Made by a program: the position numbers and the translations under genes. From Candidatus Nitrotoga sp. MKT (GTDB lineage: Bacteria > Pseudomonadota > Gammaproteobacteria > Burkholderiales > Gallionellaceae), in NCBI GenBank assembly GCA_003402345.1, contig QFXH01000012.1, forward strand, positions 1 to 64,000: DNA of 64,000 bases. The letters are read 5' to 3'. Of this stretch, positions 17,371 through 59,452 are shown piece by piece. Each line of letters opens with the position of its first letter. Position 1 is the stretch's first letter. Under the pieces are notes generated by a model. That model saw only the letters and a list, made by a program, of their open reading frames with translations. It had not been told where the DNA came from and did not search any database.

Positions 17371-19014
17371 ATGCCCGAAGTTACACTTGATCATTTCCTG
17401 CGAGCAGCTGCCGACATCAGCGCACATGGTGACAACGACACACTTCCGTTTGATATTGATACACAGTTTGTTTCGCAAAAACAGGTTGAGCTTGCACGGG
17501 TGGCGTTTGCTTTTTTCGAGCAGTTGCAAAGTGATAGTGAACAAAATAGCACACGAAAAGTATCCGAACTCAGTATTTTCAGCGAACGACTTCTTGCACC
17601 AACTGGGCCGACAGGCTTTCGCGTTGTAACTAAGATTCACCCTTTCTGGAACATCTACTTCAATGGCCTCGGCATAGCTATTGCTGAAGCATTAGAAAAT
17701 ACTCGTGACGCTCGGGTTCATTCATACCGCTTCCTGCGCAACGGCGGTAACGAGCTATTCGATAGAGCATCCTCGTGGAAAGCGTTCCGTGAAATAACTG
17801 TTGCCGATGCCAAGACATCAGGTGATGAAACGATCATTGTTCAAACCGACATTTCAAGTTTCTACGAACACATTTCACATCACCATATTGAAAACTTCAT
17901 AGACGACCTGTTTCCCGATAACGGGCGTATTGGTAATCAGGTGAATACTCTCCTTAGTAAGTTCTCATCTGGCAGGTCATTTGGCCTCCCTGTCGGGGGA
18001 CAGTGCTCCAGAATTCTTGCTGAGCTTTTCCTCAATTTAGTTGACCATCGAATGACAGAGGCCAGAATTCGATGGCATAGGTATGTCGATGACTATGTTT
18101 TGGTCGCAAGCTCTCATGCTGATGCCTACAAGGCACTTGCCTTTCTTTCGCACACGCTTGCCGATTACGGACTTACACTGAATAAGACAAAGACGGTAAT
18201 GCTTACTGCTAAACATTACTCGGACTATGTGGCGGCCCAACTTGGCAGCAATGATGACGAGGCTGGAAAGCTTAGAGAGATTGATCTGCGCTTTGATCCT
18301 TACTCAGATACGTCAGTCGAAGATTATGAGTCACTGAAGCAAACCGTCGAGAGCCTTCAAGTCCATAGACTTTTAAATCGTGAGCTGGAAAAAGCACTTC
18401 CAGATACCTTCTTGGTAACGCAGATAGGTCGAACTCTAAAGCTACAGGAGCCTAATGTAGCCATTCAACTGGCGTCCACTCTCCTCAGCCAAGGCAATCT
18501 TCACGCGTTCCGCGCATCTTGGTCGACCATCATGCGAGGCATTGCAAATCTTCGCGCTTCTGAAAAGTACAGCAGCATCTTTGCCGATCTCGATCAACTT
18601 TTAGATCGTATCCCAGAGCATTCGGCACACCTACTACAGGCGGAAGCTGGTCTTCTCCATTATCTCCGTACCCTGAGGTTCGCACGAACAATTCAAAGAT
18701 CAACCTTCGTTCAGAATATTTACAATACTACTCGCTCCGATACCGTCAGGAGGTCTTGCATTGATTGTTGGCGGCAGTGGAAAGACAGAGGAGCTTTTAC
18801 ATTCCTTCGAAATCAATGGAACACCCTTAGTTTTGAGTGCCAGCGCATTGTGTGGCTTTCGGCATCGGCTTTTGGTGATCAAGGTGAAGGGTTCAAAAGA
18901 CAGATTAAACTAAGCCTAGGTCAATCATGGAAACTCGGGATTGAACGCCAAGGCGTCACTAGTTATGCTTCGATTTATCAGGAGTGGTGCGATGACGCGC
19001 AATCCTGCGAATGA
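17371..19014 (+). CDS. Reverse transcriptase, probable defence-associated (UG/Abi-like)
   Basis: A 547-residue protein with an RT core at about 80-290: the motif A block VQTDISSFYEHI (Asp160), the motif B block GLPVGGQCSRILAE (205-218) and the motif C block RYVDDYVL (YVDD 238-241). The remaining 250 residues are helical and carry no intron-maturase X, HNH or retron VTG signature. That argues against group II introns and retrons and points to the unknown-group or Abi-type RTs, several of which give phage defence. AGAGG lies just upstream of the ATG. The next gene starts inside its last 23 bases, so RT and nuclease-like protein are probably made together. Confidence 0.85.
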   Translation: MPEVTLDHFLRAAADISAHGDNDTLPFDIDTQFVSQKQVELARVAFAFFEQLQSDSEQNSTRKVSELSIFSERLLAPTGPTGFRVVTKIHPFWNIYFNGLGIAIAEALENTRDARVHSYRFLRNGGNELFDRASSWKAFREITVADAKTSGDETIIVQTDISSFYEHISHHHIENFIDDLFPDNGRIGNQVNTLLSKFSSGRSFGLPVGGQCSRILAELFLNLVDHRMTEARIRWHRYVDDYVLVASSHADAYKALAFLSHTLADYGLTLNKTKTVMLTAKHYSDYVAAQLGSNDDEAGKLREIDLRFDPYSDTSVEDYESLKQTVESLQVHRLLNRELEKALPDTFLVTQIGRTLKLQEPNVAIQLASTLLSQGNLHAFRASWSTIMRGIANLRASEKYSSIFADLDQLLDRIPEHSAHLLQAEAGLLHYLRTLRFARTIQRSTFVQNIYNTTRSDTVRRSCIDCWRQWKDRGAFTFLRNQWNTLSFECQRIVWLSASAFGDQGEGFKRQIKLSLGQSWKLGIERQGVTSYASIYQEWCDDAQSCE

Positions 19015-19726
19015 CCCAAGAACAGTCGCCCGCAACATCCCCGGCGCTTTTGACTCTTTATTTCCTCAGTTAACTCCCAGTATCGTCGCACATTTCAACC
19101 GAACAGCACAGCTATCACTGTGCGCACCTATTCCTATCGAGATGGTGCAGGAGAGTAAGCTTAATAAAGCCATGCTTTTTGAACTCGGCTTCACTGTTGG
19201 TGAAAAGCTGCTCGCGGGAAATAGCATTGACTGGGATGATTGCTTGCGGATTGCTATCGCTCGGCAGAAACGTTATTTCGACGCGCAAGTACCGAGCGAG
19301 CTTACCAAGCTTGACAAACAGGTTGCCGAAATGACCGGCAGAAACATCACAACAATGATTAAGGAGTTGGCCGCAGAACGTAACCATCCAATTAGGGCAA
19401 CTCCTGCCGTACCAGGTTTTCAGTGGATTTCGTCAGGGCATGGTGATTTTGAAATCGGCCCAACTCTTATAGAAGTAAAGTGTAGTAGTGGTAATTTTTC
19501 AGCTCCAGACTATCGGCAGATAGTTATGTATTGGCTGCTTAGCTTTGCTGCATCAGTAGAAGACAATCGCGCAGAATGGTCTGAAGGAATTTTGTTAAAT
19601 CCACGTTCAGCAAAGTATGTGGCGTTTGAACTTGACGACTTTTTACGTGTAATAAGTGGTGGGCGTACAAAAGTTGAAATTCTTCAGCTTTTCTCCTCAA
19701 TGGTTGGAACCTGCGATGTGAGATAA
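18992..19726 (+). CDS. PD-(D/E)XK nuclease-like protein partnered with the reverse transcriptase
   Basis: A 244-residue protein. The catalytic signature is visible: GHGDFEIGPTLIEVKCSS gives Asp152, Glu161 and Lys163. YRQIVMYW follows, with a QxxxY motif at 176-180 as in RecB and Cas4 nucleases. The N-terminal 100 residues are helical (FELGFTVGEKLLAG). I do not recognise a named family. The start at 18992 has GGAG seven bases upstream and overlaps the RT gene by 23 bases. Intact catalytic residues suggest an active DNase, perhaps an effector or a processor of RT product. Confidence 0.75.
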   Translation: MTRNPANDPRTVARNIPGAFDSLFPQLTPSIVAHFNRTAQLSLCAPIPIEMVQESKLNKAMLFELGFTVGEKLLAGNSIDWDDCLRIAIARQKRYFDAQVPSELTKLDKQVAEMTGRNITTMIKELAAERNHPIRATPAVPGFQWISSGHGDFEIGPTLIEVKCSSGNFSAPDYRQIVMYWLLSFAASVEDNRAEWSEGILLNPRSAKYVAFELDDFLRVISGGRTKVEILQLFSSMVGTCDVR

Positions 19727-20902: not shown

Positions 20903-21673
20903 CTACTTGTCTGTCGGTTTTGCCATCTTCCGTTCTATTCGCTTACTGTGCTGTTCTAAATTATCACTTAGTTGGCTGATAATTTCCGAAGCGGCACTAA
21001 TAATTTGATTTGCGCCAAATCCTCCCCGGGCCATTTCTTTGTAAAAGGATTTTGCATATATTTTCGCCACTTGATCGGGATTGTGAAAAGGACTACCCAA
21101 CGATACGCCCATATTATTTTTGGCTTCTTGGGCCAGTGCCAGTTGGGCAAAGCGTGAATTCAGAATGCTCTGCAATTGGATTGACTGGATCGACTTACCG
21201 ATGAATAAAGCAACCACATTGAGAAGATTTAAATCAACTAGATTGAATGCACAATCGCGCATATGGCCACTTACGTTTACTACACCTACAATTTGCCCAC
21301 CAATGGTAATAGGCGAAGAAATCAGGCTTTTACAGGGTTCATTTGCACGTCGGGCCAATTTGGCAAATGCTGAGCAATTAATATCTTCAATCAGCAAAGG
21401 TTGGCCGGTTGCAATCACATGCCCAGCAATACCATCGCCCTTCCCTATCAATTCTTTATAAGCGGCAGCCGGCATTGGGCCGTAATTAGCGCAAACACTC
21501 ATCAGCAAATTATCGGCTGTGCCATCATTGAGCAGCATGATTGAACAATTTATAGCGCTCAATATTTTTGCCGTCATTTCAGCAAGTTGCGCAAGATTGT
21601 CGTCAAGATTGTCCTTCTCCAGAAAATTGGACAAATCCTGAAGCTTAATCAACGGAGTTTCTACATCGCCCAT
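20903..21673 (-). CDS. GAF-domain protein
   Basis: A 256-residue cytoplasmic protein with one GAF domain at about 25-175 (MLLNDGTADNLLMSVCANYGP, GDGIAGHVIATGQPLLIEDI, SSPITIGGQIVGVVNVSG). A helical tail (SEIISQLSDNLEQHSKRIERK) follows. GAF domains bind small ligands such as cyclic nucleotides, haem or tetrapyrroles; no output domain is attached. I place the start at 21673 because AAGGA precedes it at proper spacing; an ATG nine codons upstream has none. It may be the last gene of the HPr-rel-A operon. Confidence 0.8.
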   Translation of the reverse strand: MGDVETPLIKLQDLSNFLEKDNLDDNLAQLAEMTAKILSAINCSIMLLNDGTADNLLMSVCANYGPMPAAAYKELIGKGDGIAGHVIATGQPLLIEDINCSAFAKLARRANEPCKSLISSPITIGGQIVGVVNVSGHMRDCAFNLVDLNLLNVVALFIGKSIQSIQLQSILNSRFAQLALAQEAKNNMGVSLGSPFHNPDQVAKIYAKSFYKEMARGGFGANQIISAASEIISQLSDNLEQHSKRIERKMAKPTDK

Positions 21674-21795
21674 TATGAAATTATCCTTAACCTTCGCCAT
21701 ATTGTTAGACAGCTAAGTAACCAAATTTTTACTGATTCAAGCACAAAAGCATTAACAGTTTAACATCGCAAATAATTAACAATACCCAGAAACAG

Positions 21796-22872
21796 TCATT
21801 CAGGTTTAGGTGAAATAAAAGCCTTGTGAAAAAGATGACGCGCAAGAAGTAAGGACGGCATACGCAGCCAGGTTGCGCGTACATACAGTATCTGTCGTGC
21901 GGTACCAGTCAACCAATCGGAGCAGCTCTTGTGGGCAGGCAGGAGTGCACGCTCGAAAAGTTGATCTGTAAAAAACAAGGTTAACGGGTTGGGACGACCA
22001 TTTTGAATGGCTTCCATCATGCCTGAAGGAACGGGCGTATTCAAAAAATGTACAGCATAACGCAAGGCGTAAAAAAGTGGCCGCATCAACCCAAGCTCGT
22101 GTGCCCGCACGGATAAATCTGTCCAAAACGTTGGCAACTTACTGAAATGACGTAACAAACTATCAATATCGACCAAATCCCGCAGCCCCTGATCCAGTTG
22201 ATCGTTATGGAACAAGTGGACAGCACTGTGAAGCACCATATCGGCCGGGGCAAATATCTTCACATCATCATAGCCATCAAGTAATTGCGCCGCAGCCAAA
22301 AGCTTTGCCGAATCAGGGTGAAGCGCTGCCGTTTCCGGCAAAATCGCATGATGCACGTCGATAACGGTCTTCCGTTTAATATGCCGCATAGGCGGCAATT
22401 CATGCATCCATGTACGATAATAACGCTGGTCATAAGCATCGTGGTGCGTCGCCGCCCAACCATGAAGCATCAAAGCGGCTTCTACAACACTGAGACTATC
22501 TTTAGGCACAATGATGTCAATATCAGAGAATAGTCTTCCCTTGGCGGACGGCAGTTTTGCCATTACATAAGCAGCGCCTTTGAGGAGAACGACTGGCACA
22601 CCTACTTTTTCCAATGCCTTTCGAATTTGGGTTATTTCCCAATGAACAGCCTGGATATGCTTTTCAGAGATGACGCGTGACCACTCCAGATGTTGGCGAG
22701 GTTTTGGCGGTACCTGTTCGAGTAAGCTGCGTTCGTCTAATAAAAGGCAAATACGTGCCAACAGATTCGCGCGGCGTGCTTGGCGTATGAGCAAATCCCA
22801 GTCTAGCAGACTTAGGGAAATTAATGCTTCTGGCTCTCGGAGCGCTTGTAATATTAAGTAATTGGGGATCAC
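21796..22872 (-). CDS. Nucleotidyltransferase family protein (HPr-rel-A cluster)
   Basis: A 358-residue protein resembling the NTP_transf_5 group. VVLLKGAAYV followed by RLFSDIDIIVPKDSL (about 96-127) gives the lysine-glycine loop and the two catalytic aspartates, and several conserved histidines follow (DVHHAILPETAALH, DMVLHSAVHLFHND). Members are often encoded with HprK-like and PqqD-like proteins and are thought to modify a sugar or protein; the substrate is unknown. Translation seems to start at GTG 22872, as no ATG fits. A 130-base gap separates it from the kinase gene. Confidence 0.8.
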   Translation of the reverse strand: MIPNYLILQALREPEALISLSLLDWDLLIRQARRANLLARICLLLDERSLLEQVPPKPRQHLEWSRVISEKHIQAVHWEITQIRKALEKVGVPVVLLKGAAYVMAKLPSAKGRLFSDIDIIVPKDSLSVVEAALMLHGWAATHHDAYDQRYYRTWMHELPPMRHIKRKTVIDVHHAILPETAALHPDSAKLLAAAQLLDGYDDVKIFAPADMVLHSAVHLFHNDQLDQGLRDLVDIDSLLRHFSKLPTFWTDLSVRAHELGLMRPLFYALRYAVHFLNTPVPSGMMEAIQNGRPNPLTLFFTDQLFERALLPAHKSCSDWLTGTARQILYVRATWLRMPSLLLARHLFHKAFISPKPE

Positions 22873-23002
22873 ATTGGGTATTTATGTCAAATATAATGTG
22901 ATGAGTCGTTTTGCCACCACCCAATTCATTTTCACCAGAAGGGGCAGAAACTCGAGTCACTTTCTCTACAGAGGAGGCTGGGGCAACCTGATTGTAAATA
23001 AC

Positions 23003-23947
23003 CTACAATTCATTAGCATACATATGATTATTATTGGCAGCTTGCGGCTTTAGCGCACCAAATATTTCAATGGCATCATCCAATTTGCTGTACGTAAAAT
23101 CATAACACAGAGATGCATCAATCAATTTTGTCATGGCCTTAAAGCCCTGGAGTCCAAGAAGACTGTAATTAAAAGAATTATCTGCAACCCGCATGAACGC
23201 GCGGGATTGAGGCAATGTCTCCAAACACGCCGTAGCACCCGCCTGATATTTTGGAAAAATAACCCACGCAACCTGCACGGCCTCTGCAGCGCGGGCGATA
23301 CTATCAGCCGGTGCTTTCATGTGGGCAACCGTGCCTTTTATCGTATCCGCCACCTTACGGCTGAAAATCGCATTGGGTTCATAACGCCTGATGATCTCGA
23401 TAGATTCGTTTTTTAAACTAACGGGGCGCGGAAGCGGAATAAGCTTCCCATCACTAACACGGATCAACGCAAGCTCATCAGACAGCAATCTCCATCCGCG
23501 GTTTACCAAAGCTGCACATAAAGTGCTTTTACCCGAGCCTGGAGGAGCGGGCATAATCGCGGCAAAACCACCTTTTTCAACTACTGCCGCATGAATCATC
23601 AAACAGTGATTAACATGGGTTGATACGCACCAATTAAGTCCCCACTCCAACATGGGGAATGCCTGATCTAACGGCAGGGGTTTAAATATGGTGTTTCCGT
23701 CAAATAAAAACAACGCCTGTGGCTTAAACCATCGCCGTAGGTTACGTGGACGCGTAAGATTAACGTGGAAATCCGCAAAACAATCTTGCTCGACCAAAGG
23801 ATAATCGGCATAAAGCAAACCAATACCTTCAGCCACACTGGGAATCGTAGTTTTGAGGTGCGTAGTAAAAGAGCCAGTTTGCAAATATATCCCCGCCGTT
23901 TTAAGACGGAGCTTAAGTTCTGATGGCGTTAATGCAGAAACATTCAA
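23003..23947 (-). CDS. HprK-related kinase A
   Basis: A 314-residue protein with a P-loop of the HPr kinase/PEPCK kind: PAPPGSGKST at 133-142, then GWRLLSDELALIR, equivalent to the second acidic motif, and LPRPVSLKNESIEII. It lacks the N-terminal regulatory domain of true HprK. It matches the family named HPr-rel-A kinase, which appears with PqqD-like and nucleotidyltransferase genes in exosortase-bearing bacteria. Start is a TTG at 23947, two bases after the PqqD-like stop. The phosphorylated target is unknown. Confidence 0.82.
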   Translation of the reverse strand: MNVSALTPSELKLRLKTAGIYLQTGSFTTHLKTTIPSVAEGIGLLYADYPLVEQDCFADFHVNLTRPRNLRRWFKPQALFLFDGNTIFKPLPLDQAFPMLEWGLNWCVSTHVNHCLMIHAAVVEKGGFAAIMPAPPGSGKSTLCAALVNRGWRLLSDELALIRVSDGKLIPLPRPVSLKNESIEIIRRYEPNAIFSRKVADTIKGTVAHMKAPADSIARAAEAVQVAWVIFPKYQAGATACLETLPQSRAFMRVADNSFNYSLLGLQGFKAMTKLIDASLCYDFTYSKLDDAIEIFGALKPQAANNNHMYANEL

Positions 23948-23949
23948 AA

Positions 23950-24231
23950 TCAGCTAAATTCTATCAGTCCAAGCGTATTAAGCTCATTGAGGAGATGGTC
24001 AATTTGGAATGAAAATTCCTTGTCCGTTACATTTTCGGCTTGCAGCCGTTGGGCAAGCGCTTCGGTCAAATGTAGCGCGTTTAATGACGATTGCCGTAAT
24101 TCCAACAGCACCTGGGCAGCTGCTGAGCCAAGCAGATGGGTATCTCCCGAAAGATTATTATAAAATACCCATTCATCATCATCCCATGAGCAGTAACTAA
24201 CTGCCTGACTGGGAGTTAAGCGCCATTCCAT
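23950..24231 (-). CDS. PqqD-like protein of the HPr-rel-A system
   Basis: A 93-residue protein with the PqqD-like fold: YCSWDDDEWVFYNNLSGDTHLLG, VLLELRQSSLNALHLTEALA and a C-terminal helix pair (FSFQIDHLLNELNTLGLIE). PqqD relatives usually hold a peptide substrate for a modifying enzyme. Here no radical SAM enzyme is present; the partner is the HprK-like kinase encoded two bases downstream. The 24288-25085 product could be its client, by position. Confidence 0.78.
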   Translation of the reverse strand: MEWRLTPSQAVSYCSWDDDEWVFYNNLSGDTHLLGSAAAQVLLELRQSSLNALHLTEALAQRLQAENVTDKEFSFQIDHLLNELNTLGLIEFS

Positions 24232-24287
24232 TTTTAATTAGCATCATTAAGGGAAAAGTAAGACTGGCATAGGGTTATTGCGGCAAT

Positions 24288-25085
24288 TTAATTAGCCCCA
24301 GTTTGCTTTAAATAATCGATAATTTGTGCGGCATTCCAATCTACATTGGCAGTGGGAGAAAAAACACCACGACTCTGCCACTCATCGAACATCGATTGAA
24401 TTGTAGCTGGAGACAAATAAGGAGTATCTCCATTTCTTGCACGATACAATGCTTTTACAAGATGTTGTAATAACACCTGCGTTTGATAAGGAGGGAGATC
24501 CGGAGGTGCAACTACGGTAGTCGGGGTTGGCAGCGTTATGTTATTTGTCTTACCCTGCTTACGTGCCTGAGAATTTGAATCTGATGCAGCGCGAAACGCC
24601 GTCGTGTAGCTCCCAGCCGCTAATTTCCCCTTGGGCGGCGGCACTGGAACGTTTACATTTGCCGGTGCGCTTGGATTTACATTTACAGTCTGAGGCTCTG
24701 TCCAAACATTTGCCATTATATCTACGCAACGTCTATTGTTATATGACGTATTCGATAGGCTTGACATTGGAAACGCCTCTATAAACTTTTCATCTGGATT
24801 TATAGCGGATTTAAAGCCTGATATAACTGCGGGGGGACACTCACCATGCTGGCTGGTATTACCTGACACAAACCCAGATGGTGTCGAACAAAATGCTTCA
24901 CCTAATACGGGCCGGCTCGCAAGAGTTAAAATAATCCCTGATACCGCTAAACCAGACGCCGCAAACTGCCTCCGGGATTCGCCTGAAAACTTTATCTGAT
25001 CACCGGCATCATGAGATAACTGTTGTTTTTCCAACCCATCACTTTTATCCACATTGACGGCCATAATATAATCATCCTTTTTCAT
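24288..25085 (-). CDS. Hypothetical exported protein with internal twin-arginine signal, first gene of the HPr-rel-A operon
   Basis: A 265-residue protein, not recognised. Residues 1-36 are hydrophilic; then ESRRQFAASGLAVSGIIL fits a twin-arginine (SRRxF) signal followed by a hydrophobic stretch and a cleavage-like VLGEAF. The mature part has cysteine-containing segments (FCSTPSG, HGECPP), a proline-rich hinge (NVPVPPPKGK) and a C-terminal helical region (YLSPATIQSMFDEWQSRG). An alternative start at 25064 also has a plausible ribosome site (AAGGA). Position at the head of the operon, behind a sigma-54 promoter, suggests it is the substrate of the PqqD-like/HprK-like pair (inference). Confidence 0.7.
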   Translation of the reverse strand: MKKDDYIMAVNVDKSDGLEKQQLSHDAGDQIKFSGESRRQFAASGLAVSGIILTLASRPVLGEAFCSTPSGFVSGNTSQHGECPPAVISGFKSAINPDEKFIEAFPMSSLSNTSYNNRRCVDIMANVWTEPQTVNVNPSAPANVNVPVPPPKGKLAAGSYTTAFRAASDSNSQARKQGKTNNITLPTPTTVVAPPDLPPYQTQVLLQHLVKALYRARNGDTPYLSPATIQSMFDEWQSRGVFSPTANVDWNAAQIIDYLKQTGAN

Positions 25086-25168
25086 GTTGCACCTTGCATT
25101 TCACACATCGTCCTAATTCGATTATTTAGTACCCGGCAAATTAATATAGAACACACCAGACACATCAA

Positions 25169-25183
25169 GCAAAATACATGCCA
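25169..25183 (-). promoter_or_regulatory. Sigma-54 promoter upstream of the HPr-rel-A operon
   Basis: On the minus strand TGGCATGTATTTTGC has the -24 GG and -12 GC exactly ten bases apart and agrees with TGGCAC-N5-TTGC in all but one base. It ends 84 bases before the first start codon. Confidence 0.75.
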
Positions 25184-25623
25184 AAATCGGCATATATTTT
25201 AAAGAAATATAATAAACATGGTGCTACGCTACCCACACTCTTGCAGTTTCTTACTTTTTTAAAAGTTTTAACTAGAAATGTAAAAATTCTCGACATCCTA
25301 ACCAAGTACCCACGACTCTCGACTCTAAGTAAAATAGAACAAGCGATCAATATTCAGCTTCCCGGATAAGAATCAATCCACTCACCCGTGACACACTCTA
25401 CTGCAACCGAGCAAGCCCCGTCGGACAGCGCGTTGCTGTATAACCCCCGCATTCTCCAGCCTGGTTAGCCGATGCACTCTTCAAGAGAGTGCCCGATATA
25501 GCAACTACCGTTAGCCTAAAAAAAGAAAAATGTACACCCACTACAAATCACATAAAAACTGTACTAATTAATAGCATACCCATAACGAATATAACTATAA
25601 ATCTGAAATCCTTCACTTATGGC

Positions 25624-40481: not shown

Positions 40482-41258
40482 ATGAAACTTAATAAAATTG
40501 CAGCCACAATGATTTTAGCATCGCTTGGGTTTACCAGCTTAAATGCCCAAGCCGTGACAGTTGATGGCATTACTTGGGATCCTAATAGCTTTTTCGATTT
40601 CAGTTCTACTACTAATCTTTTTGAAATTACGAGTGGCACGGCAGGCGCTGAAATTAGTGGTTACGGCAAGGTAACTTCTCTTAATGCGGAAGGAACTTTT
40701 GCTGCTGCCGGAAGGGAATTGACTTATCAATTTGGTGGTTTTATCTTAAATGCCGCCACTACTCTCAGCCCTTTTGGAAGTGGCATCAACTCAGATGGTA
40801 GCTTTTCTTTCACTGGAGGCTGGCTCAAAGTGTTTTCGGATGCATCAGCAGACTTTAATGCTCTTGTAAAAAGCACTTCTGGCGATGGTACACTTTGGCT
40901 CGACATGTTGGCCAATAATACAGCACTCTCACCTAATACCTTAACTGGAACAGTTACCGGGCAAAATAGCGTTGGCCTAACAGGCCAAGGTACTGGTTAT
41001 TTTGATGTTGTCGGCGGCTCTGCCGCTGCTTATGTAAATACCAATACTCAACCTGGATCATCTGATTTCACATATACATCCTCGTTCCAAGCTCTTAACG
41101 CTCCTGTTATTAATGGCGGGGTAATAGTGGCTAATGCTTTTGGTACGAATGAGCTTTTCGGTCAGTCAGTTAATGTTCCTGAGCCGACTAGTATTGCTCT
41201 GCTGGGTTTAGGCCTGTTGGGTCTAGGTTTTAGTCGCCGCAATAAAAAATCTGCGTAA
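40482..41258 (+). CDS. PEP-CTERM sorting-domain protein
   Basis: A 258-residue exported protein. It has a signal peptide (about 1-25, ending LNAQA), a serine/threonine/asparagine/glycine-rich body poor in cysteine, and a C-terminal tripartite sorting signal (about 231-258): VPEPTSIALLGLGLLGLG followed by FSRRNKKSA. Exosortase XrtA cuts such tails at the PEP motif after export; the proteins often become glycosylated and take part in floc or exopolysaccharide formation. AGGAGA precedes the ATG, and a sigma-54 promoter lies upstream. The body matches no named domain I know. Confidence 0.92.
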   Translation: MKLNKIAATMILASLGFTSLNAQAVTVDGITWDPNSFFDFSSTTNLFEITSGTAGAEISGYGKVTSLNAEGTFAAAGRELTYQFGGFILNAATTLSPFGSGINSDGSFSFTGGWLKVFSDASADFNALVKSTSGDGTLWLDMLANNTALSPNTLTGTVTGQNSVGLTGQGTGYFDVVGGSAAAYVNTNTQPGSSDFTYTSSFQALNAPVINGGVIVANAFGTNELFGQSVNVPEPTSIALLGLGLLGLGFSRRNKKSA

Positions 41259-44449: not shown

Positions 44450-47233
44450 CTACAACTGCTTTAGCAATGTTTTTGCTTCTTCAATCTGGGGAAAAGTTTT
44501 TCCGGTAGCCAGAATTTGCTCTAATTCTTTACGTGCCTTGACCTTGTCCCCAGATTTAACCAATCCCAACACCAGATGATAACGAATAGCGGCTGCTTCC
44601 GGCGCCACGCTGGCGGCCTTTTGTAAAAGCGGCAAGCCACGCGTTATATTGCCTTGTTCCACCAACATCCAACCTAAGGTATCAAGTATTGCCGGATTGT
44701 CAGGAGCAAGTTGGTTAGCTTTCTCGGCATACTCCAAAGCACGGGGATCTTTTTCCTGTTGGTAGAGCCAAGCAAGATTGTTCAATGCCGGAATATTTTT
44801 TGCATTTTGCTGCAACACAGCTTGGTATTGTTCGATAGCGGCTTTATTTTGCTTACTGGCAAGATAAATTCCCGCCTGATACATTCGAGCAGTGACATCG
44901 GCAGGATGCTCTTTTAACCATTGAGCCAAGCGGATATCTGCTACCTTACTTTTACCGGATTGGCCTAGGGAAGTGTGCAATTTCACCATGAGCGAACCAT
45001 TTTTGCTGACGCTAAATGCCTGTTCATAGGCCTTCACCGCTAGATCAGGTTTTTTTTGCGCCATCAGCACATCACCTTCCAACTCAAAACCTACAGTAGA
45101 TTTGAGATTTTTTTTCTGAATTTGCCGGGCAATTGTGAGAGCTTGCTCATAATTGCCTTTTTTGGCCTCCAAAGAAGCTAAAGATAATTGTGCTTCCAGA
45201 TAATCCGGTTGCAATGATAGTGATTTTTTGAGAGCGTCCGATGCCGCCGACTCGTTCTGCATTGCCATGTGTATCGTAGCGATGAAAAATTGGGCAGGGG
45301 CAGAGTCCGGTTTCATAGCGGCAAGTCTGCTGTAGGTTTCCAACGCGGCTGGCTTATCGCCGTTGGCGAATTGGGCTTGTCCCAGAATATTCAGAACTTC
45401 TGGGCTGCTGGAGTTGGAGCCTTGAAGTTTTTGGGCAAGAGTAAGTGCCTTCTGTTTTTCACCTATGCGTACATAATGAGCTGCCAGCAGCATGGCCGGT
45501 TGCAACTCATCCGGATTTTCTTTGCTGGCATTCTCTAGCCAGGTAGTCGCTTCCTTGGTCTGCCCTTGAGAGAGAGCAAGATTGGCCAGTGCGGTCATGA
45601 CTTGAGAGTTTTTCTTGTCTTTTTCAAGCATAGCCTCAAAGCGCTTTTTCGCCACTTCTGGCTTTTTGTCCCTCAAATCAAGTTGCACCAAATTCATCAC
45701 AGCAGGTAAATTGGCAGGCTGAATAGAAAGCGCTTTTTCAAAACTCACGCGTGCAGCAGCACTATCATTTTTGCCCAAATAAGCAGCGCCTTTCAGGTTG
45801 TAAACAACGGGGTTCTCAGGTTGTTCTTTTTCCAGAGCCTTTACTGCTGTGAGTGCCTTATCATATTCTTTAAGACGAAGGTGAGTCATCACCAACAAAA
45901 CACCTGCCTTAGGTGATTTAGTGTCCATTGCTGCTGCTGTTTCCATTTCAGCCACTGCACGGTCATTCTCACCTAGCGCCAATCTGCTTAAGCCTAGGGC
46001 GCTATGCAGTTCCGCCGCTTTTGGCGCAAGGGCGCTAGCCTTTGCAAAATATTCTGTCGCTTTTGTGTAATCTCCGGCTTGCATATATGATTCACCCGCA
46101 AGTGCCAGTAATTGGATATCGTCTTGTTGCACGGCTTTAAGCGCTGGCGCCAATACATCAATTGCGTTTTGTGTACGGTGGCTTTTTAGCAACGTAGATG
46201 CCATCAATTTACGCGCATAGACATTACCCGGATCCCTTTCGAGATATTTCTTCAAATGTTGTTCGGCTTGCGGCAGTGACCCAAGTGCCAACTGCACGGC
46301 TCCTGCCAGCAGAACACTAGGCATATGTTCTGGCGCTGCACGTAGAACTTTCTGCAAAGATTCCAATGCTACCGCATGCTTCCCTTGACGGAAATCAAGC
46401 AATGCTTGCGCATAGAAAATGATTAAACTATTCGGCGATGTTTTGCGTGCCGCATCAATATCTCCTTGGGCTAAATCGAATTTCCCCGCCTCAATTTCTA
46501 AAAAAGCCTTATTGGTATGGGCTGAGTTATTGTCCGGTTGCAATTTCAAAGCTTGGTCATAAGCGGCAAGGGCAAGCTCAACTTTTCCTTGGGCACGCAG
46601 AAAATCACCTTTAAAAAGGACCACATCCGTGTTTTGTGGATTTTTGGTTACAGCTTGTTCGGTGAAGCCTGTTGCGGCATCGATATTTTTCTCCGTAATC
46701 GAATGCCTAGCTAACCCGATAAGCGCGTCCGGGAAATCAGGTTTATTCTTCAGGGCCTGCTCAAACGATTCCTTGGCTTCCTGGCTTTTGCCTAAAGCTA
46801 AATAAGCATTGCCACGCGAGACTGATATTTCAGCAGATTCTTTTTCCCCTGGAACCTGCTTGATCTCATCCAAAACCGCCTGAAATTTTCCTTGCATAAG
46901 CAAAGATTTACCCAAATCAGACGACACTTTAGCGGGATTCATTCCCAAACTCAAAGCCTTACGAAGCTCTTTCTCGGCTGAAGGAAAATCTGCAGTTTCA
47001 TTGTAAATAGTACCCAAAAGATAACGGGCTTCGACATCATCTGGATTTTTTTGCAACGCATTTTTTAGTTGGATAATAGCGGCCTTATTATCGCCCTTCT
47101 GTTGATACTGTTTTGCTTCAGCAACCAGCGTCTCCGAGGTCTGCGTTTTACCGCAGGCGGTCATGCCACCCATGCACAGGATCGTCACAGAAACTATTAC
47201 AATGGTTATTTTTTGCCTGTTTATGTTTAGCAT
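44450..47233 (-). CDS. prsT: PEP-CTERM system TPR-repeat lipoprotein PrsT
   Basis: A 927-residue lipoprotein: hydrophobic signal with a lipobox ending at Cys27 (GMTACGK), then some twenty-plus tetratricopeptide repeats spanning nearly the whole chain. An example is KGDNKAAIIQLKNALQKNPD at about 46-65, and the repeats run down to NPAILDTLGWMLVEQGN. Length and layout match the PEP-CTERM TPR lipoprotein. It is thought to scaffold exopolysaccharide assembly or export in the periplasm. AAGGA lies before the ATG. It is on the opposite strand to prsK/prsR, within the same locus. Confidence 0.92.
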   Translation of the reverse strand: MLNINRQKITIVIVSVTILCMGGMTACGKTQTSETLVAEAKQYQQKGDNKAAIIQLKNALQKNPDDVEARYLLGTIYNETADFPSAEKELRKALSLGMNPAKVSSDLGKSLLMQGKFQAVLDEIKQVPGEKESAEISVSRGNAYLALGKSQEAKESFEQALKNKPDFPDALIGLARHSITEKNIDAATGFTEQAVTKNPQNTDVVLFKGDFLRAQGKVELALAAYDQALKLQPDNNSAHTNKAFLEIEAGKFDLAQGDIDAARKTSPNSLIIFYAQALLDFRQGKHAVALESLQKVLRAAPEHMPSVLLAGAVQLALGSLPQAEQHLKKYLERDPGNVYARKLMASTLLKSHRTQNAIDVLAPALKAVQQDDIQLLALAGESYMQAGDYTKATEYFAKASALAPKAAELHSALGLSRLALGENDRAVAEMETAAAMDTKSPKAGVLLVMTHLRLKEYDKALTAVKALEKEQPENPVVYNLKGAAYLGKNDSAAARVSFEKALSIQPANLPAVMNLVQLDLRDKKPEVAKKRFEAMLEKDKKNSQVMTALANLALSQGQTKEATTWLENASKENPDELQPAMLLAAHYVRIGEKQKALTLAQKLQGSNSSSPEVLNILGQAQFANGDKPAALETYSRLAAMKPDSAPAQFFIATIHMAMQNESAASDALKKSLSLQPDYLEAQLSLASLEAKKGNYEQALTIARQIQKKNLKSTVGFELEGDVLMAQKKPDLAVKAYEQAFSVSKNGSLMVKLHTSLGQSGKSKVADIRLAQWLKEHPADVTARMYQAGIYLASKQNKAAIEQYQAVLQQNAKNIPALNNLAWLYQQEKDPRALEYAEKANQLAPDNPAILDTLGWMLVEQGNITRGLPLLQKAASVAPEAAAIRYHLVLGLVKSGDKVKARKELEQILATGKTFPQIEEAKTLLKQL

Positions 47234-47393
47234 AACTTCTTTCCTTTGAATTTCGTGGTGGCTTTAAATTGATACGACAGTAACGCTAACCTAGAAACTA
47301 TGAATACAAGTAGTCAACCAACTTCATCTCCCACAAAAGAAGCATTGAACTTCCCGCAAATGACATAACTCAATCCTACCAATGAAATAAACT

Positions 47394-47420
47394 CGTTCGC
47401 CCTGAGTCTGTCGAAGGATG
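47394..47420. repeat. Dispersed proteobacterial repeat (TTCGCCCTGAG..GTCGAAGG type)
   Basis: CGTTCGCCCTGAGTCTGTCGAAGGATG matches, in two parts (CGTTCGCCCTGAG and TGTCGAAGGATG), the very common intergenic repeat with an imperfect hairpin between CGCCCTGAG-like and its mirror. Only one copy is present here. The surrounding gap 47234-47523 holds no gene. Confidence 0.55.
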
Positions 47421-47523
47421 AGCAAATTTTTAACTAACTATTTCTTGTTATTCATTTTGTACTTATTGAAATATTACGCACTATGAATCGCATAGAGGTG
47501 TCCTAGAGCCGGAATGCTTTTAT

Positions 47524-48804
47524 CTAGAGTCTCCAAACATTAAGCCCAGCCGCGCGCAAAGCTGTCTGATCAAAATGAGATTTAACATCAATAAAGCAAC
47601 CATTTGAAACAATTTTTTCTTGGAAATCAGCAAGGGGCCTGACAAGAAATTCGCGGTGTGAAACTGCGGCAATCATTGCATCTGCGCGTGGCAAATTTTC
47701 CCAAGTTACAAGTTCCAGGCCATACTCATGATGAGCATCTACAGCAGTGGTTACTGGATCATGCACATGAACTTCTACACCGTAAGACCGAAGTTCGAGA
47801 ATAATATCCATAACCTTTGAATTCCTGAGGTCAGGGCAATTTTCTTTGAATGTCAATCCAAGTACAGTTACTTTTGAGCCTTTTACATTGAGACCCGCAC
47901 GGATCATTTCTTTCACGGTTTTTTCCGCAATAAATTTTGCCATTCCGTCATTTATTCGGCGTCCCGCCAGTATCACCTGAGGGTGATAGCCAATCATATC
48001 CGCTTTGTGGGTAAGATAGTAAGGGTCTACACCAATACAATGCCCACCAACTAACCCGGGACGAAAAGGGAGGAAATTCCATTTCGTCCCGGCGGCCTGC
48101 AGTACCTGCAACGTGTCAATTTCAAGCTTATCGAAAATGATGGCCAATTCATTAATTAATGCAATATTCAGATCACGTTGAGTATTTTCGATCACTTTTG
48201 CCGCTTCTGCGACCTTAATACTGGATGCTCTATGTACACCGGCACTGATAATAGCTTCGTAAAGCTTAGCTACTTTTTCCAGCGTTTCGTTATCATCTCC
48301 TGATACAATTTTTACAATGGAAGTAAGGGTGCGTTCTTTATCACCTGGATTAATTCTTTCTGGAGAATACCCAATATGAAAATCTTTTTTCCATTCCATG
48401 CCAGAATTTTTTTCCAGAATTGGAATACATACTTCCTCAGTAGCTCCTGGGTAAACAGTTGATTCATAAATAATTATTGCGCCGCGTTTCATGTATCTTC
48501 CAACCGTTTCGCTGGCGCCAACAAGAGGAGAAAAGTCAGGCTGATGGGCGCTATCTACGGGCGTTGGAACTGCGATTACAATATAGTCGGCAAGAGATAA
48601 TTCGGAGGGGTCGGAGCTGACGGTAAGGTGGGTAGCCTCTTGCAACTTTTCAGTTGACAATTCTCCAGTTGGATCAATATGCCGCTTGTAGCTCTCTATT
48701 TTGGTAGCGGAAAGATCAAATCCGATCGTTTGCTGCTTTTTTCCAAACTCTACAGCCAGAGGTAAACCCACATATCCAAGCCCAACTACGGCAACAATGT
48801 CCAT
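47524..48804 (-). CDS. tviB: UDP-N-acetyl-sugar 6-dehydrogenase (TviB/WbpO type)
   Basis: A 426-residue nucleotide-sugar dehydrogenase: NAD site VVGLGYVGLPLAVEF (7-21), the middle domain GYSPERINPGD, and the catalytic Cys256 in GLVGGHCIGVDPYYL. A C-terminal UDP-binding domain contains GLTFKENCPDLRNSKV. The two-step oxidation yields a UDP-N-acetyl-hexosaminuronic acid, most likely galactosaminuronate, an exopolysaccharide precursor. The longer DLSATKIESYKRHIDPTGE segment fits this subgroup rather than plain UDP-glucose dehydrogenase, but specificity remains inferred. Confidence 0.88.
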   Translation of the reverse strand: MDIVAVVGLGYVGLPLAVEFGKKQQTIGFDLSATKIESYKRHIDPTGELSTEKLQEATHLTVSSDPSELSLADYIVIAVPTPVDSAHQPDFSPLVGASETVGRYMKRGAIIIYESTVYPGATEEVCIPILEKNSGMEWKKDFHIGYSPERINPGDKERTLTSIVKIVSGDDNETLEKVAKLYEAIISAGVHRASSIKVAEAAKVIENTQRDLNIALINELAIIFDKLEIDTLQVLQAAGTKWNFLPFRPGLVGGHCIGVDPYYLTHKADMIGYHPQVILAGRRINDGMAKFIAEKTVKEMIRAGLNVKGSKVTVLGLTFKENCPDLRNSKVMDIILELRSYGVEVHVHDPVTTAVDAHHEYGLELVTWENLPRADAMIAAVSHREFLVRPLADFQEKIVSNGCFIDVKSHFDQTALRAAGLNVWRL

Positions 48805-48980
48805 ACTAAACTCACTTTACTATTTATCATGATCTTTTGAATCTAGCAGATATGCTGGCAAGCTTCAATCTTATTCTCAATTTATCTTATCGGTTTACTA
48901 ACATCGCTAATGTTATTGTTACAAAAGCCGATATGATATGGGCTTAACTTAAAAATACGAGCAAATTTTGTGGAGTGAAA

Positions 48981-50381: not shown

Positions 50382-50400
50382 CCTAATGGAACAACCTTAA

Positions 50401-52515
50401 ATGTTGACAAGCATCACTGCATATAGCTATGGCATAGCCGCTGTAGCATTTCTTATACTCACCGTTCTCTTGTTAACCAGTTGGCGTGCCCGTATTTTCG
50501 GGACAGCGCTAACGGTTGCTTGCGTGATAACGGTGTTTTGGGCAACATCAATTGTTTACCAGGCAGCTAGAGCCCCCTTATCGTTGCTGACAGACGTTCT
50601 GGAAATTTTACGAAATGCAGGGTGGTCTATCTTCCTGTTAATGTTGTTGGGACCTTTCCAACAAACAAACTCTTCACCTCCTTTTAAATTCAAACTAAAA
50701 CCTTATGTGGTTGGCATCCTAGCATTTTATTGCTTACTCTTATTTTTGAACATTTATAGCTATTGGGAACTTGAACCCTCCCAAGGAGAAACAGATTTTA
50801 TAACGGACATCGTTGGCCGTGTAGTCATGGCAGTTATGGGCATGCTCTTGGTGGAACAACTTTACCGGAATACACCCGCCAAAGGACGCTGGGGCATAAA
50901 ATTTGCCTGCTTTGGAATCGGAGGAATGTTTGTCTACGATTTTTACTTATATAGCGACGCTATGTTGTTCAAGCAAATTAATATGGAAATCTGGACTGCC
51001 CGAGGAGCGGTCAATGCCCTGATAGTTCCTCTAGTGGCAATATCGGCGGCACGGAATCCCCAATGGTCTTTGGGTATTTCGGTATCACGCCGTATTTTAT
51101 TCCACTCAGCAACATTGTTAGGCACTGCCCTGTATTTACTGGCTATGTCTGCTGCCGGCTATTACCTGCGGTTTTTCGGGGGAAGCTGGGGAGCCATCAT
51201 GCAAGTAACTTTTTTGTTCGGAGCTGTGGCCCTACTTGTTGGCATATTGTTTTCGGGCGCATTTCGTTCATGGCTTAAGGTTTTCATCAGCAAGCATTTT
51301 TATAATTACAATTACGACTATCGTGAAGAATGGTTAGGTTTTACGCGCACGCTTTCCGAGCATAGCCATGGACTGGGTGAACGCACCATCCAAGCCGTAG
51401 CGGCACTCGTGGAAAGCCCCGGGGGTGTTTTGTTCATTAACCGGGAATCAGGCAATTGCGAACCTGCAGCTCATTGGAATATGAATTTGCCGAATGAGTC
51501 TGAACCGGCAAATAGCACCTTTTGCCAGTTTCTGGAAAACAAGCAGTGGGTAATCGATCTTCAGGAATATGGTTCAAATCCTGAAAAGTACAGCGCAATT
51601 TTTATTCCTCAATGGTTACGAAGTTTCCCTAAAGGCTGGTTGATAGTTCCCTTAATTCTGCTGGGGAGGCTGTTTGGCTTTATGATACTGGCGCGACCCA
51701 GAAGTAGTAGCATCAAGTTAAATTGGGAAGTGATTGATCTACTCAAAATCGCTGGTAGCCAAGCCGCAAGCTATCTTGCCCAACAGGAATCAACTAACGC
51801 TCTCATCATTGCGCGTCAGTTTGAATCTTTCAATCGCATGTCGACTTTCATAGTTCATGATCTGAAAAATTTGGTCTCCCAGTTATCGTTATTACTTTCC
51901 AATACCGAAAAGCATAAAAACAATCCAGAATTCCAAAAAGATATGCTTGAGACACTCGATTATTCCGTCCAAAAAATGAAACTGCTTCTGCATAAATTAA
52001 GCAGAGAGTCTTCCATAGAGCATCCCTCTCCCCTTTTTATTGACAAATTATTACGGCAGACATTGGCATTAAAAGCTGCCTTTGAGCCTAAACCTGAGCT
52101 TGAGATCCTAGACCCTGATCTGATGGTGGTAGCTAATTGGGATCGTCTCGAGAGAGTGATTGGCCACATTGTTCAAAACGCTGTTGAAGCCACACCCAAA
52201 AATGGCAAAGTAACAATCCATATTTCGAAGCTCGGATTTTTTATAGTGATCGAAATAAAAGATACCGGTCAAGGTATGAGCGAAGAATTCATTCGTGAAC
52301 GGTTATTCAAGCCATTTGAATCTACAAAGTCGGCAGGTATGGGAATTGGCATGTTTGAAAGCCGTGAATATATCCATGAACTGGGTGGCCAAATTGAAGT
52401 CTCCAGCCATCAAAATACTGGTACAACTTTCCGGGTAATGTTGCCACTTCATAAACATGTTGATGATGTCAAAAATACCACGTCACAGCAAGGATACTCC
52501 CATGAACCCAGATAA
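50401..52515 (+). CDS. prsK: XrtA/PEP-CTERM system histidine kinase PrsK
   Basis: A 704-residue sensor kinase. It has eight or so membrane spans in the first 300 residues, a GAF-like domain (about 325-465), the phospho-acceptor His486 in FIVHDLKNLVSQLSLLL and an HATPase domain (NAVEATPKNGK, DTGQGMSEEF, GMGIGMFESREYIHELGGQIEVSS). It follows the glycosyltransferase by 19 bases and overlaps prsR. It is expected to phosphorylate PrsR in response to an unknown envelope signal. Confidence 0.95.
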   Translation: MLTSITAYSYGIAAVAFLILTVLLLTSWRARIFGTALTVACVITVFWATSIVYQAARAPLSLLTDVLEILRNAGWSIFLLMLLGPFQQTNSSPPFKFKLKPYVVGILAFYCLLLFLNIYSYWELEPSQGETDFITDIVGRVVMAVMGMLLVEQLYRNTPAKGRWGIKFACFGIGGMFVYDFYLYSDAMLFKQINMEIWTARGAVNALIVPLVAISAARNPQWSLGISVSRRILFHSATLLGTALYLLAMSAAGYYLRFFGGSWGAIMQVTFLFGAVALLVGILFSGAFRSWLKVFISKHFYNYNYDYREEWLGFTRTLSEHSHGLGERTIQAVAALVESPGGVLFINRESGNCEPAAHWNMNLPNESEPANSTFCQFLENKQWVIDLQEYGSNPEKYSAIFIPQWLRSFPKGWLIVPLILLGRLFGFMILARPRSSSIKLNWEVIDLLKIAGSQAASYLAQQESTNALIIARQFESFNRMSTFIVHDLKNLVSQLSLLLSNTEKHKNNPEFQKDMLETLDYSVQKMKLLLHKLSRESSIEHPSPLFIDKLLRQTLALKAAFEPKPELEILDPDLMVVANWDRLERVIGHIVQNAVEATPKNGKVTIHISKLGFFIVIEIKDTGQGMSEEFIRERLFKPFESTKSAGMGIGMFESREYIHELGGQIEVSSHQNTGTTFRVMLPLHKHVDDVKNTTSQQGYSHEPR

Positions 52516-53863
52516 AAAAAAGCTACTTGTGATTGAAGATGATCTAGGCTTGCAAAAGCAATTACGCTGGAATTTTGATGCTTATGAAGTGCTATTAGCG
52601 GGAGACCGTGAAAGCGCGCTGGCGCAAGTTAGACGGCATGAACCTGCGGTTATCACCATGGATCTTGGACTCCCTCCTGATCCCGATGGTGCTACGGAAG
52701 GATTGGCAATCCTACAACAGATTCTTGCGCTTGCCCCTGACACCAAATTAATTGTGCTTTCAGGGAATCAAGATCATGCCAATGCGGTGAAAGCGATTGG
52801 TATGGGCGCTTATGATTTTCATCAGAAACCGTTTAACCCAGAGATACTAGGGTTAGTGGTTGAACGTGCATTTTATTTGCACGCGCTACAACAGGAAAAC
52901 CGCAGAATTTTACAGATTCAGGCCGATTCTCCCTTATCTAGTATTGTCAGTCGGGATCCCGGCATGTTGAAGGTGTGCCGTAGCGTTGAAAAAGTAGCCC
53001 CCTCCTCCGCCTCGGTCATGCTGTTAGGTGACAGCGGAACGGGCAAAGAACTGTTGGCAAGAGCGCTGCACCAAATGAGCCCGCGGCACGAGAAGCGCTT
53101 CATGGCAATCAACTGTGCTGCAATCCCGGAAAATCTTCTGGAGAGCGAGTTGTTTGGCTATGAGAAGGGAGCGTTTACCGGAGCTGCAAAACAAACGTTA
53201 GGTAAAATTGAACTTGCCGATGGAGGTACTTTTTTTCTTGATGAAGTCGGGGATATGCCCATGCTTCTACAAGCGAAACTTCTCCGATTTTTGCAAGAAA
53301 GGGTCATCGAGAGAATCGGAGGGCACCAGGAAATTCCTGTTGATGTTCGAATTGTCTGCGCAACACATCGTAACCTGAAGGAACTCAGCGTTGCGGGACG
53401 TTTCCGTGAAGACCTTTATTACCGGTTAAGCGAGATTACAGTCACTATCCCCCCGTTACGGGAACGAGTGGGCGACGCCGCATTGTTGGCACACCATTTT
53501 AAGAACAAATTCAGTATTAAAGAGGGGCGTTCTTCACTAAACTTCACTCAGGAAGCACTGGCCATGATAGAAGGATACTCCTGGCCGGGTAATGTGCGCG
53601 AAATGGAAAACTGCATCAAGCGTGCCGTCATCATGGCTGAAGGCTCCCAAATAAGCGCAGAAGATATTGGTCTGTCGACTTCACCCAAGATGATAGAGTC
53701 TATCAATTTGCGCCAGGTACGTGATGACGCCGAATACAACGCCGTGGTAAAAGCGCTGGCGAGAGTAAATGGCAATATTGCCAAGGCGGCCGAATTGCTC
53801 GGTGTTAGCCGTCCAACACTCTACGATTTAATAAGCCGTCATGGTATTGTATGCAAAGCTTAA
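52502..53863 (+). CDS. prsR: PEP-CTERM system sigma-54 response regulator PrsR
   Basis: A 453-residue NtrC-type activator. The receiver domain has phospho-acceptor Asp54 (VITMDLGLPPD); the AAA+ domain has Walker A GDSGTGKE (176-183) and the sigma-54 contact loop GAFTGA (223-228). The C-terminus is a Fis-type helix-turn-helix (GNIAKAAELLGVSRPTLYDL). AAGGA precedes ATG 52502, which overlaps the last 14 bases of prsK. In other PEP-CTERM bacteria PrsR with RpoN drives PEP-CTERM protein genes, and good sigma-54 promoters occur before such genes here. Confidence 0.96.
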   Translation: MNPDKKKLLVIEDDLGLQKQLRWNFDAYEVLLAGDRESALAQVRRHEPAVITMDLGLPPDPDGATEGLAILQQILALAPDTKLIVLSGNQDHANAVKAIGMGAYDFHQKPFNPEILGLVVERAFYLHALQQENRRILQIQADSPLSSIVSRDPGMLKVCRSVEKVAPSSASVMLLGDSGTGKELLARALHQMSPRHEKRFMAINCAAIPENLLESELFGYEKGAFTGAAKQTLGKIELADGGTFFLDEVGDMPMLLQAKLLRFLQERVIERIGGHQEIPVDVRIVCATHRNLKELSVAGRFREDLYYRLSEITVTIPPLRERVGDAALLAHHFKNKFSIKEGRSSLNFTQEALAMIEGYSWPGNVREMENCIKRAVIMAEGSQISAEDIGLSTSPKMIESINLRQVRDDAEYNAVVKALARVNGNIAKAAELLGVSRPTLYDLISRHGIVCKA

Positions 53864-54212
53864 GGGGAGTTGCTGATCTAGTCGAACATTTATTTGTGGC
53901 TTGCATTTTGATGCAAAATTGATTCTCGGCAGAGAGTATATTGCCCTGGCAAACCGCTTTATAATAAGGGCAAGTATTATGAAGGTATCATCACCGTAAC
54001 TTCCCACCCCCATCTTTTTCATTGCTGGATCATTTGTTGATCAGGTAAAATTTATCTTGCTATCAAAAATCAGTAGTCCGCTTTATCTCCGCTATATCTA
54101 AGACACAAAATTGACACCCAGGTATAGTTCATTCCTTTTTTGCTTATGCATTAACAAAATAATCAACCGATAAAAACACATAAGCTCTCCCCAATAAAGA
54201 GGAATTTGATGT
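53864..54212. other. Intergenic region between prsR and the arn operon
   Basis: About 349 AT-rich bases without a convincing hairpin or terminator. It must contain the arn operon promoter. AGAGGA at 54198-54203 is a good ribosome site for the small ORF that follows. Confidence 0.45.
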
Positions 54213-54341
54213 ATGGAATTTAAGTTAATCAACAGCATACTTGAAGCAGAAATGAAAATTGGTCAATTATCCGTAGTCGCTAGCACTTATTTTTCAACCG
54301 GTAGATCACTACAATTAATGGCACGAAAGCGGATGCCTTAA
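54213..54341 (+). CDS. Small ORF (42 residues) coupled to arnT
   Basis: It starts MEFKLINSILEAEMKIGQLS and ends LMARKRMP. AGAGGA lies nine bases before the ATG, and its TAA shares a base with the arnT ATG (TAATG), the same coupling used between real genes in this window. I recognise no family and see no membrane span. It may be a real small protein or a leader peptide that sets arnT translation. Confidence 0.5.
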   Translation: MEFKLINSILEAEMKIGQLSVVASTYFSTGRSLQLMARKRMP

Positions 54342-57473: not shown

Positions 57474-57570
57474 CATGCGCATAGCGCACGCTATGCTGAC
57501 CACACCTTAATTTTGCTTGTATTTATTCCCAATTTCGCTAACCGCGCCCTCTGCGGTAAAATGCTGCGCC

Positions 57571-59432: not shown

Positions 59433-59452
59433 GATTGTTAAAGAAAATTATC

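Follow-up and report, generated by a model that had tools for sequence, protein, structure and literature searches.

A Tat-signal protein as a constant part of the HPr-rel-A system, with a proposed role as its tagged and exported substrate

We analysed a 64,000-nucleotide (nt) stretch from the genome of a nitrite-oxidising, Candidatus Nitrotoga-like bacterium (the window), whose list of open reading frames (ORFs) shows, on the minus strand from 25085 to 21796, four genes in the order T, P, H and N. T is a protein of the twin-arginine translocation (Tat) type, P a PqqD-like protein, H an HprK-related kinase A and N a nucleotidyltransferase-fold protein of family PF14907. P and H both score above their curated NCBIfam cut-offs (TIGR04353 and TIGR04352) and are thus members of the HPr-rel-A system; N has no match in the NCBIfam scan. 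T, too, belongs to this system, as a constant part of it. Beyond this, we consider it probable that the operon produces a single exported protein and also tags it, with P binding the leader of T, H phosphorylating T, N decorating it and Tat exporting it, all under the control of PrsR and sigma-54. What computation establishes is the gene set and its conservation, the linkage of T and P, the fold of the P model, that of a recognition element for ribosomally synthesized and post-translationally modified peptides (RiPP recognition element, RRE), the intact active-site residues of H and N, and a box with a promoter-like site upstream. A first-pass annotation of this DNA had described four genes in this order behind a sigma-54 match, and all were confirmed at the positions it gave. 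The elements of the operon are:

24288..25085, minus: T, Tat-signal protein of 265 amino acids (aa), proposed substrate (conservation and linkage; no NCBIfam match)
24900..25085, minus: leader of T, residues 1-62, a variable extension followed by SRRQF and a hydrophobic stretch ending TLASRPVLG (position-wise conservation)
24852..24899, minus: residues 63-78 of T, with C66, Ser70, Ser74 and Ser78 in C-x3-S-G-x2-S-G-N-x-S, candidate modification site directly after the signal peptide (Ser conservation)
23950..24231, minus: P, HPr-rel-A PqqD-family protein of 93 aa with RRE fold (TIGR04353, 48.9 bits, cut-off 35)
23003..23947, minus: H, HprK-related kinase A of 314 aa with H119, K140, D157 and E158 (TIGR04352, 407.1 bits, cut-off 200)
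21796..22872, minus: N, NTP_transf_5 (nucleotidyltransferase-fold) protein of 358 aa with D117, D119 and D172 (PF14907, 193.4 bits, cut-off 31.2)
25168..25183, minus: sigma-54 (-24/-12) promoter-like site TGGCATGTATTTTGCT, matching 12 of 12 scored consensus positions
25279..25295, minus: PrsR-box-like motif TGTCGAGAATTTTTACA, whose end lies 95 nt before the sigma-54 site (equalled by none of 300 mononucleotide shuffles)

The constancy of T was assessed across 140 kinase loci, made up of 16 from a family search, 25 from named genomes, 98 from further stretches, and the window. Dropping 13 in which the last 220 aa of H repeat those of another locus left 127 non-identical loci; kinase matches below cut-off (L017-L025) had been left out and the short loci L051-L107 replaced by longer stretches. 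Taxon group names beyond the kinship labels of the relatives are our own reading. In 115 of the 127 loci, T adjoins H or P. For 114 of them an iterated T profile puts it ahead of H on the same strand, its end 206-912 nt before the start of H; this distance is at most 450 nt in 107 of the 114, and a P match lies between T and H in 107 of the 114. At L163, T and P sit on the opposite strand, upstream of H and divergent from it.

What of the loci without an adjoining T? Four of these (L050, L138, L185 and L204) start at or near a contig edge. The other eight are L037, L038, L165, L166, L172, L179, L189 and L203, and in six of the eight genomes T is found upstream of P elsewhere. The profile identified it in G903 and G904; in G542, G634, G583 and G775 it was recognised from the ORF preceding P, which has an RR leader and a C-x-x-S end. 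A link of T to P or H thereby exists in 121 of 123 testable loci. The A1 version of the T profile found T in just two of the eight exception genomes (G903 and G904) and matched 38 of 49 other genomes at E 1e-5, because it was built on T resembling the class A type defined below. The idea that the Nitrosospira-like relatives (L037 and L038) do without the first gene was rejected, as their T and P sit elsewhere in the genomes. Within the family set of 158 genomes, strong T matches (E < 1e-60) occur in 16, the same 16 that have a kinase above cut-off, and two further genomes have marginal matches (E 7e-4). A lone second T (L210:6327-6977, plus) occurs in one Nitrotoga (G108), with no P, H or N among the neighbouring ORFs of at least 90 aa, as expected if recognition works in trans. 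The first-pass annotation had named homologous operons without the first gene as a finding that would refute its reading, and this refutation fails.

All four genes are under purifying selection among close relatives, the nearest named ones being Candidatus Nitrotoga with kinase identities of 97 and 96%. The ratios of nonsynonymous to synonymous substitution rates (dN/dS) against L026 are 0.38 for T, 0.10 for P, 0.07 for H and 0.07 for N. For T, the values of 0.38, 0.50 and 0.38 against the Nitrotoga loci L026, L027 and L028 indicate purifying selection, at 3.6-5.9 times the dN/dS of H and N over four pairs.

Judged by its sequence, T appears to carry a Tat signal, with a twin-arginine motif (ESRRQF, residues 36-41), a hydrophobic stretch and an A-x-A/G-like end, and the genome has tatC (226.6 bits). 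An in-frame ATG at 25064 is a start of T that fits the relatives better than 25085. The arginine pair is RR in 96, RK in 14 and KR in 3 of the 113 anchored leaders (two anchors, L117 and L135, look misplaced, and L041 has none). The 36 residues before the Tat motif, which had been singled out in the first-pass annotation as the distinctive part, turned out to be poorly conserved, at 0.55-0.83 bits for positions -12 to -2 against 4.15 and 3.78 bits for the twin arginines. Conservation resides in these arginines, in the end of the signal peptide (rather conserved, for example TLASRPVLG or TLQSGAALA) and in the Ser motif that follows it.

An alignment of 19 T, chosen by locus irrespective of motif, shows R32, S64, S68, S72, W95 and A160 as nearly invariant (L034 numbering, as below), and C60 to S72 of L034 directly follow the signal peptide. 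Regular expressions divide 114 T into class A (55, of which 45 qualified through the SGN.S motif), class B (45) and neither (14). Among 54 class A T, C60, S64 and S68 are kept in 53, N70 and W95 in 50 and S72 in 49; the serines matching Ser70, Ser74 and Ser78 of the window T are kept in 53, 53 and 49, counts that are partly built in because the Ser motif helped to define the class. All 45 class B T keep a Cys close to the mature N-terminus. They also carry C-x-x-S-[FLIA] towards the C-terminus, which is not independent evidence because that motif defined the class.

The window T has no NCBIfam match and its only Pfam match is far below cut-off (DUF6971, E 0.05); together with six relatives (n=7) it gave no Pfam or NCBIfam model above cut-off, and it has no PEP-CTERM motif by PF07589 or TIGR02595 up to E 1. 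In the L034 model, residues 77-213 are predicted as a folded domain, with a ten-residue mean predicted local distance difference test (pLDDT) score of 72-95 from residue 81 on; the Ser-motif region has low confidence and is read as disordered. The fold found no PDB match at E 0.001 or better with Foldseek and none at Z of at least 2 among 97 chains with VIA-align. On sequence evidence, T presents itself as a precursor-like design with conserved leader, variable cargo and conserved Ser motif.

The P profile is weak in sequence searches against the PDB, and fold comparison was therefore used; TbiB1, considered as a sequence match, reached just E 1.1, below several designed or unrelated proteins. 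The AlphaFold2 model of P (mean pLDDT 88.8) shows the three to four beta strands followed by three helices, over about 90 aa, of an RRE/PqqD fold. Its ten best Foldseek matches are all RiPP enzymes, headed by TbiB1, a lasso protein with leader peptide (TM 0.74), which VIA-align superposes at Z 11.2 with 86 aligned residues and a root-mean-square deviation of 2.4; its list also includes MibB, MccB and PqqD. A similar winged-helix domain is shared by PKMT methyltransferases, Rv2067c and MINA53, at Z 8.3-9.1 against the P model. As modelled, P is a free-standing protein with RRE fold, which suits the first-pass view of the PqqD-like protein as a substrate-presenting type.

A match to 1jb1 (E 0.0015) relates H to HPr kinase, and among 127 aligned kinases H119 and K140 are each kept in 125 and D157 and E158 in all 127. 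Copies of N with at least 300 aa occur in 114 of 127 loci; D117, D119 and D172 are kept in 113 of these 114, the sole exception ending at a contig edge. The N profile has no PDB sequence match up to E 10. These counts come from alignments, used in place of regular-expression checks that missed variants, and by sequence the kinase and transferase active sites appear intact in nearly every aligned copy.

How is the operon controlled? In published PEP-CTERM promoters a 17-nt motif ending in TTTACA precedes the sigma-54 site (motif 2, -24/-12) by 32-92 nt, and PrsR has been proposed as the cognate activator (Haft et al. 2006, PMC1569441). The T promoter has both motifs, its 95 nt, counted to TGG, lying slightly over the published range, which is measured to the 17-nt motif 2; the box consensus was read from PEP-CTERM promoters after TTTACA had already been seen in the T promoter. 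Sigma-54-like sites (at least 10 of 12 positions, GG/GC core) stand before 44 of 51 class A T on the sense strand, compared with 1 of 51 when the opposite strand is read and an expectation of 0.86 under mononucleotide shuffling; they precede 12 of 44 class B T and 11 of 13 T of neither class. These counts cover 108 of the 114 T, leaving out L036, L041, L135 and three with less than 250 nt upstream. Of 67 loci with such a site, 50 have a PrsR-type box ahead of T (p 0.01 or less by mononucleotide shuffles), and the spacings between box and site recur every 11.1 bp, so that the two are helically phased (R 0.63 over 36 spacings, a value that 1 of 5000 draws attained under a uniform null; significant boxes only, with 15 Nitrotoga/Gallionella-type spacings merged to one).

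Within the window, the pair of box and sigma-54 site occurs twice, before T and before a PEP-CTERM gene, against 0.1 per shuffled window. That gene and the regulatory genes of the window are:

40482..41258, plus: PEP-CTERM protein with the window's only other pair of box (from 40306) and sigma-54 site (TGG at 40384)
44450..47233, minus: PrsT, TPR protein (TIGR02917, 982.4 bits, cut-off 312.2)
50401..52515, plus: PrsK, histidine kinase (TIGR02916, 870.7 bits, cut-off 300)
52457..53863, plus: PrsR, sigma-54 response regulator and proposed activator of the operon (TIGR02915, 739.8 bits, cut-off 502.6)

With EpsB2, the three Prs genes form a set in window 44450-60349, about 19-29 kb from the operon; behind it, from 54341 to 60349, lie genes resembling enzymes of 4-amino-4-deoxy-L-arabinose (Ara4N) lipid-sugar metabolism, mostly below curated cut-offs. 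Three of the genome's 11 PEP-CTERM matches (L253, L254 and L256) have TTTACA 48-64 nt before their own sigma-54-like site; L262 has the variant TTTACG, the L258 stretch repeats the L254 promoter, and the other matches have no such pair at 48-64 nt. A strict pattern of box and site with spacing 46-76, which the T site cannot match because of that setting, has two hits in the 2.7 Mb genome. One falls at the window's PEP-CTERM gene; the other, C1:52737-52831, lies by its coordinates immediately upstream of L264:127-1431 (minus), which encodes a secreted-looking protein of 434 aa without Pfam match.

PrsR was tested in 72 of the 97 HPr-rel-A genomes and is above cut-off in 60, among them 49 of 50 of the window's own class and 11 of 11 of family f213. 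Within the family set it passes the cut-off in 14 of the 16 genomes that have the kinase, versus 4 of the 142 without it. A sigma-54-like site precedes T in 38 of 53 scored PrsR-positive genomes and in 4 of 11 PrsR-negative ones. In G264, G844, G777, G824, G846, G854 and G109, PrsR and the HPr-rel-A kinase share a contig and are about 3-6 kb apart. The link to a sigma-54 regulator drawn in the first-pass annotation is strengthened by the box and by this co-occurrence. In Aquincola, a PEP-CTERM gene is reported to need RpoN1, and insertions in prsT, epsB2 and prsK to abolish flocs, prsK not being complementable (PMC9850573).

From these observations we infer a course of events. T would be made with its Tat leader, through which P would bind it and present it to H; H, as an HprK-like and ATP-dependent enzyme, would phosphorylate a conserved Ser of T. 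In the window T the target would most likely be one Ser of the C-x3-S-G-x2-S-G-N-x-S stretch just after the signal peptide, and in class B it might be the Ser within C-x-x-S-[FLIA] close to the C-terminus. N would add a further group, sugar or nucleotide, to the phosphoserine. ATP-dependent tagging must occur in the cytoplasm, and Tat is able to export folded, finished proteins, which together would explain the use of Tat: it would carry the folded, tagged T across the membrane, and signal peptidase would remove the leader. RNA polymerase carrying sigma-54 would transcribe the operon, with PrsR acting from the upstream box, and T would thus be made together with the PEP-CTERM proteins in an exopolysaccharide programme.

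This proposed scheme resembles the tailoring of paeninodin and of linear polyphosphorylated peptides (LPP) in Bacillota, applied to a larger, Tat-exported protein. The kinases PadeK and PsmK phosphorylate a precursor Ser in the paeninodin and pseudomycoidin pathways, and in the latter the annotated nucleotidyltransferase PsmN is needed for hexose addition, a host enzyme not being excluded (PMC9266682). Here likewise the kinase is proposed to act on a precursor Ser and a nucleotidyltransferase-type gene accompanies it; the substrate there is a lasso peptide, whereas we propose a protein, and the macrolactam synthetase and B2 protease of lasso pathways are found neither in the window operon nor in its next genes. 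LPP clusters contain a discrete RRE, an HprK-like kinase and an NTP transferase; their precursors have conserved N-termini and variable C-termini, LppK phosphorylates core Ser3 directly after the leader, and the clusters often lie beside capsular polysaccharide loci in Bacilli (PMC13381572). The same set is present here, matched by kind of gene only, and T likewise combines a conserved N-terminal part with variable cargo in a polysaccharide context. PsmN and LppN we take to be members of PF14907, as N is. LPP, however, has a peptide precursor with a YxxPxVL leader motif, which is not in residues 1-62 of the window T, and a SipW-like signal peptidase and MsbA-like exporter, neither of which adjoins the window operon. 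The genes next to it encode a GAF-domain protein and an Fnr regulator, neither a protease nor a transporter; the former, directly downstream of N (window 20903-21700, minus), has a weak likeness to the sensor part of NifA. With the PEP-CTERM/exosortase regulon the operon shares the design of box and sigma-54 site and a window that holds PrsR, PrsK, PrsT and a PEP-CTERM gene, although T differs from PEP-CTERM proteins in having a Tat leader and no PEP-CTERM motif match. The first-pass annotation had stated that the system has no established biochemical function. This stands insofar as we found no paper naming HPr-rel-A in the one open-licence library searched, despite a kinase above cut-off in 41 of 369 genomes sampled from the class and in 61 of 398 sampled from the phylum (four genomes in both samples); nor did any paper found there describe T as a constant part or its PrsR box. 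It does not extend to enzymes of the same kinds, whose action on RiPP precursors is known from the paeninodin, pseudomycoidin and LPP pathways.

Several points weigh against tagging of T under PrsR control. The fold of P alone is no proof of leader binding, because winged-helix proteins other than RREs reach Z 8.3-9.1, and the leader of the window T has no [Y/W]xxP motif of the kind bound by lasso and LPP RREs, so that the contact must differ from known cases. The conserved Ser of T may be structural or used after export, and the motif evidence of both classes carries the circularity described above. Deletion of lppN is described as without effect in that study's host (PMC13381572). No T was found in two genomes searched with enough sequence (L166/G595 and L203/G721). 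PrsR is below cut-off in 10 of 10 tested genomes of the phylum's other families and in G809, and G165, G103 and G064 also have none above it; the exopolysaccharide link is therefore not universal, holding among the genomes tested for the window's own class and f213 and not for every carrier.

Other functions can be considered. P and H could form a chaperone or quality-control pair for Tat export, with P shielding the leader until T folds and a transient phosphorylation, rather than a lasting tag, controlling release to Tat. P does have a fold of the leader-binding type, conservation in the aligned leader region is highest at the twin arginines, and T and P stay together where H and N lie elsewhere; we nevertheless hold this to be unlikely, for it leaves unexplained both N, with its length and Asp residues kept across loci, and the nearly invariant Ser after the cleavage site. 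The relationship of H to HPr kinase and the membership of N in a nucleotidyltransferase-fold family would also suit a true target elsewhere, be it an HPr-like protein, a carbohydrate or a nucleotide, in which case P would serve that target as an adaptor and T would simply be an exported protein under shared regulation. Such a bystander would be expected to go missing or be exchanged more often, though, and T is kept with P even where H and N are elsewhere (6 of 8 such genomes) and shares its 16 of 158 family genomes with H, which makes such a bystander role quite improbable.

It is less probable still that T is processed to a small secreted peptide, as in a RiPP pathway for an antimicrobial or signal. 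An RRE, a kinase and an NTP transferase are indeed RiPP tailoring parts, and the cargo is variable, but the class A cargo is predicted to be a folded domain (L034 residues 77-213), the operon's next genes are not for a protease or transporter, and its promoter design is that of PEP-CTERM genes. Tagging and export of T as a whole protein remains the reading we prefer.

Elsewhere in the window, at 17371-19726 (plus), a reverse transcriptase gene matching Drt8 (497.4 bits) is overlapped by a gene matching RTasPDDEXK (240.2 bits), which by the PADLOC models make up a DRT8-type anti-phage defence pair.

Finally, we would like to place these results in the wider context of HPr-rel-A, for which they supply a missing partner (T), a regulon (PrsR/sigma-54) and candidate Ser residues. 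The link to surface polysaccharide may be general, because LPP clusters, built of similar parts, often adjoin capsular polysaccharide loci in Bacilli. We can also imagine, as a tentative and rather doubtful extension, a system widespread in Pseudomonadota in which an RRE protein recruits kinase and transferase to the Tat leader of a dedicated protein, or of a few such proteins; these would be exported with a phospho-linked sugar on a conserved Ser motif, the tag joining or organising them in the exopolysaccharide matrix. If this were true, it would amount to RRE-guided modification of full-size, Tat-exported proteins. And if our reading of the operon is right, leader recognition of the RiPP type would be linked to Tat export and to matrix building by biofilm- and floc-forming bacteria.

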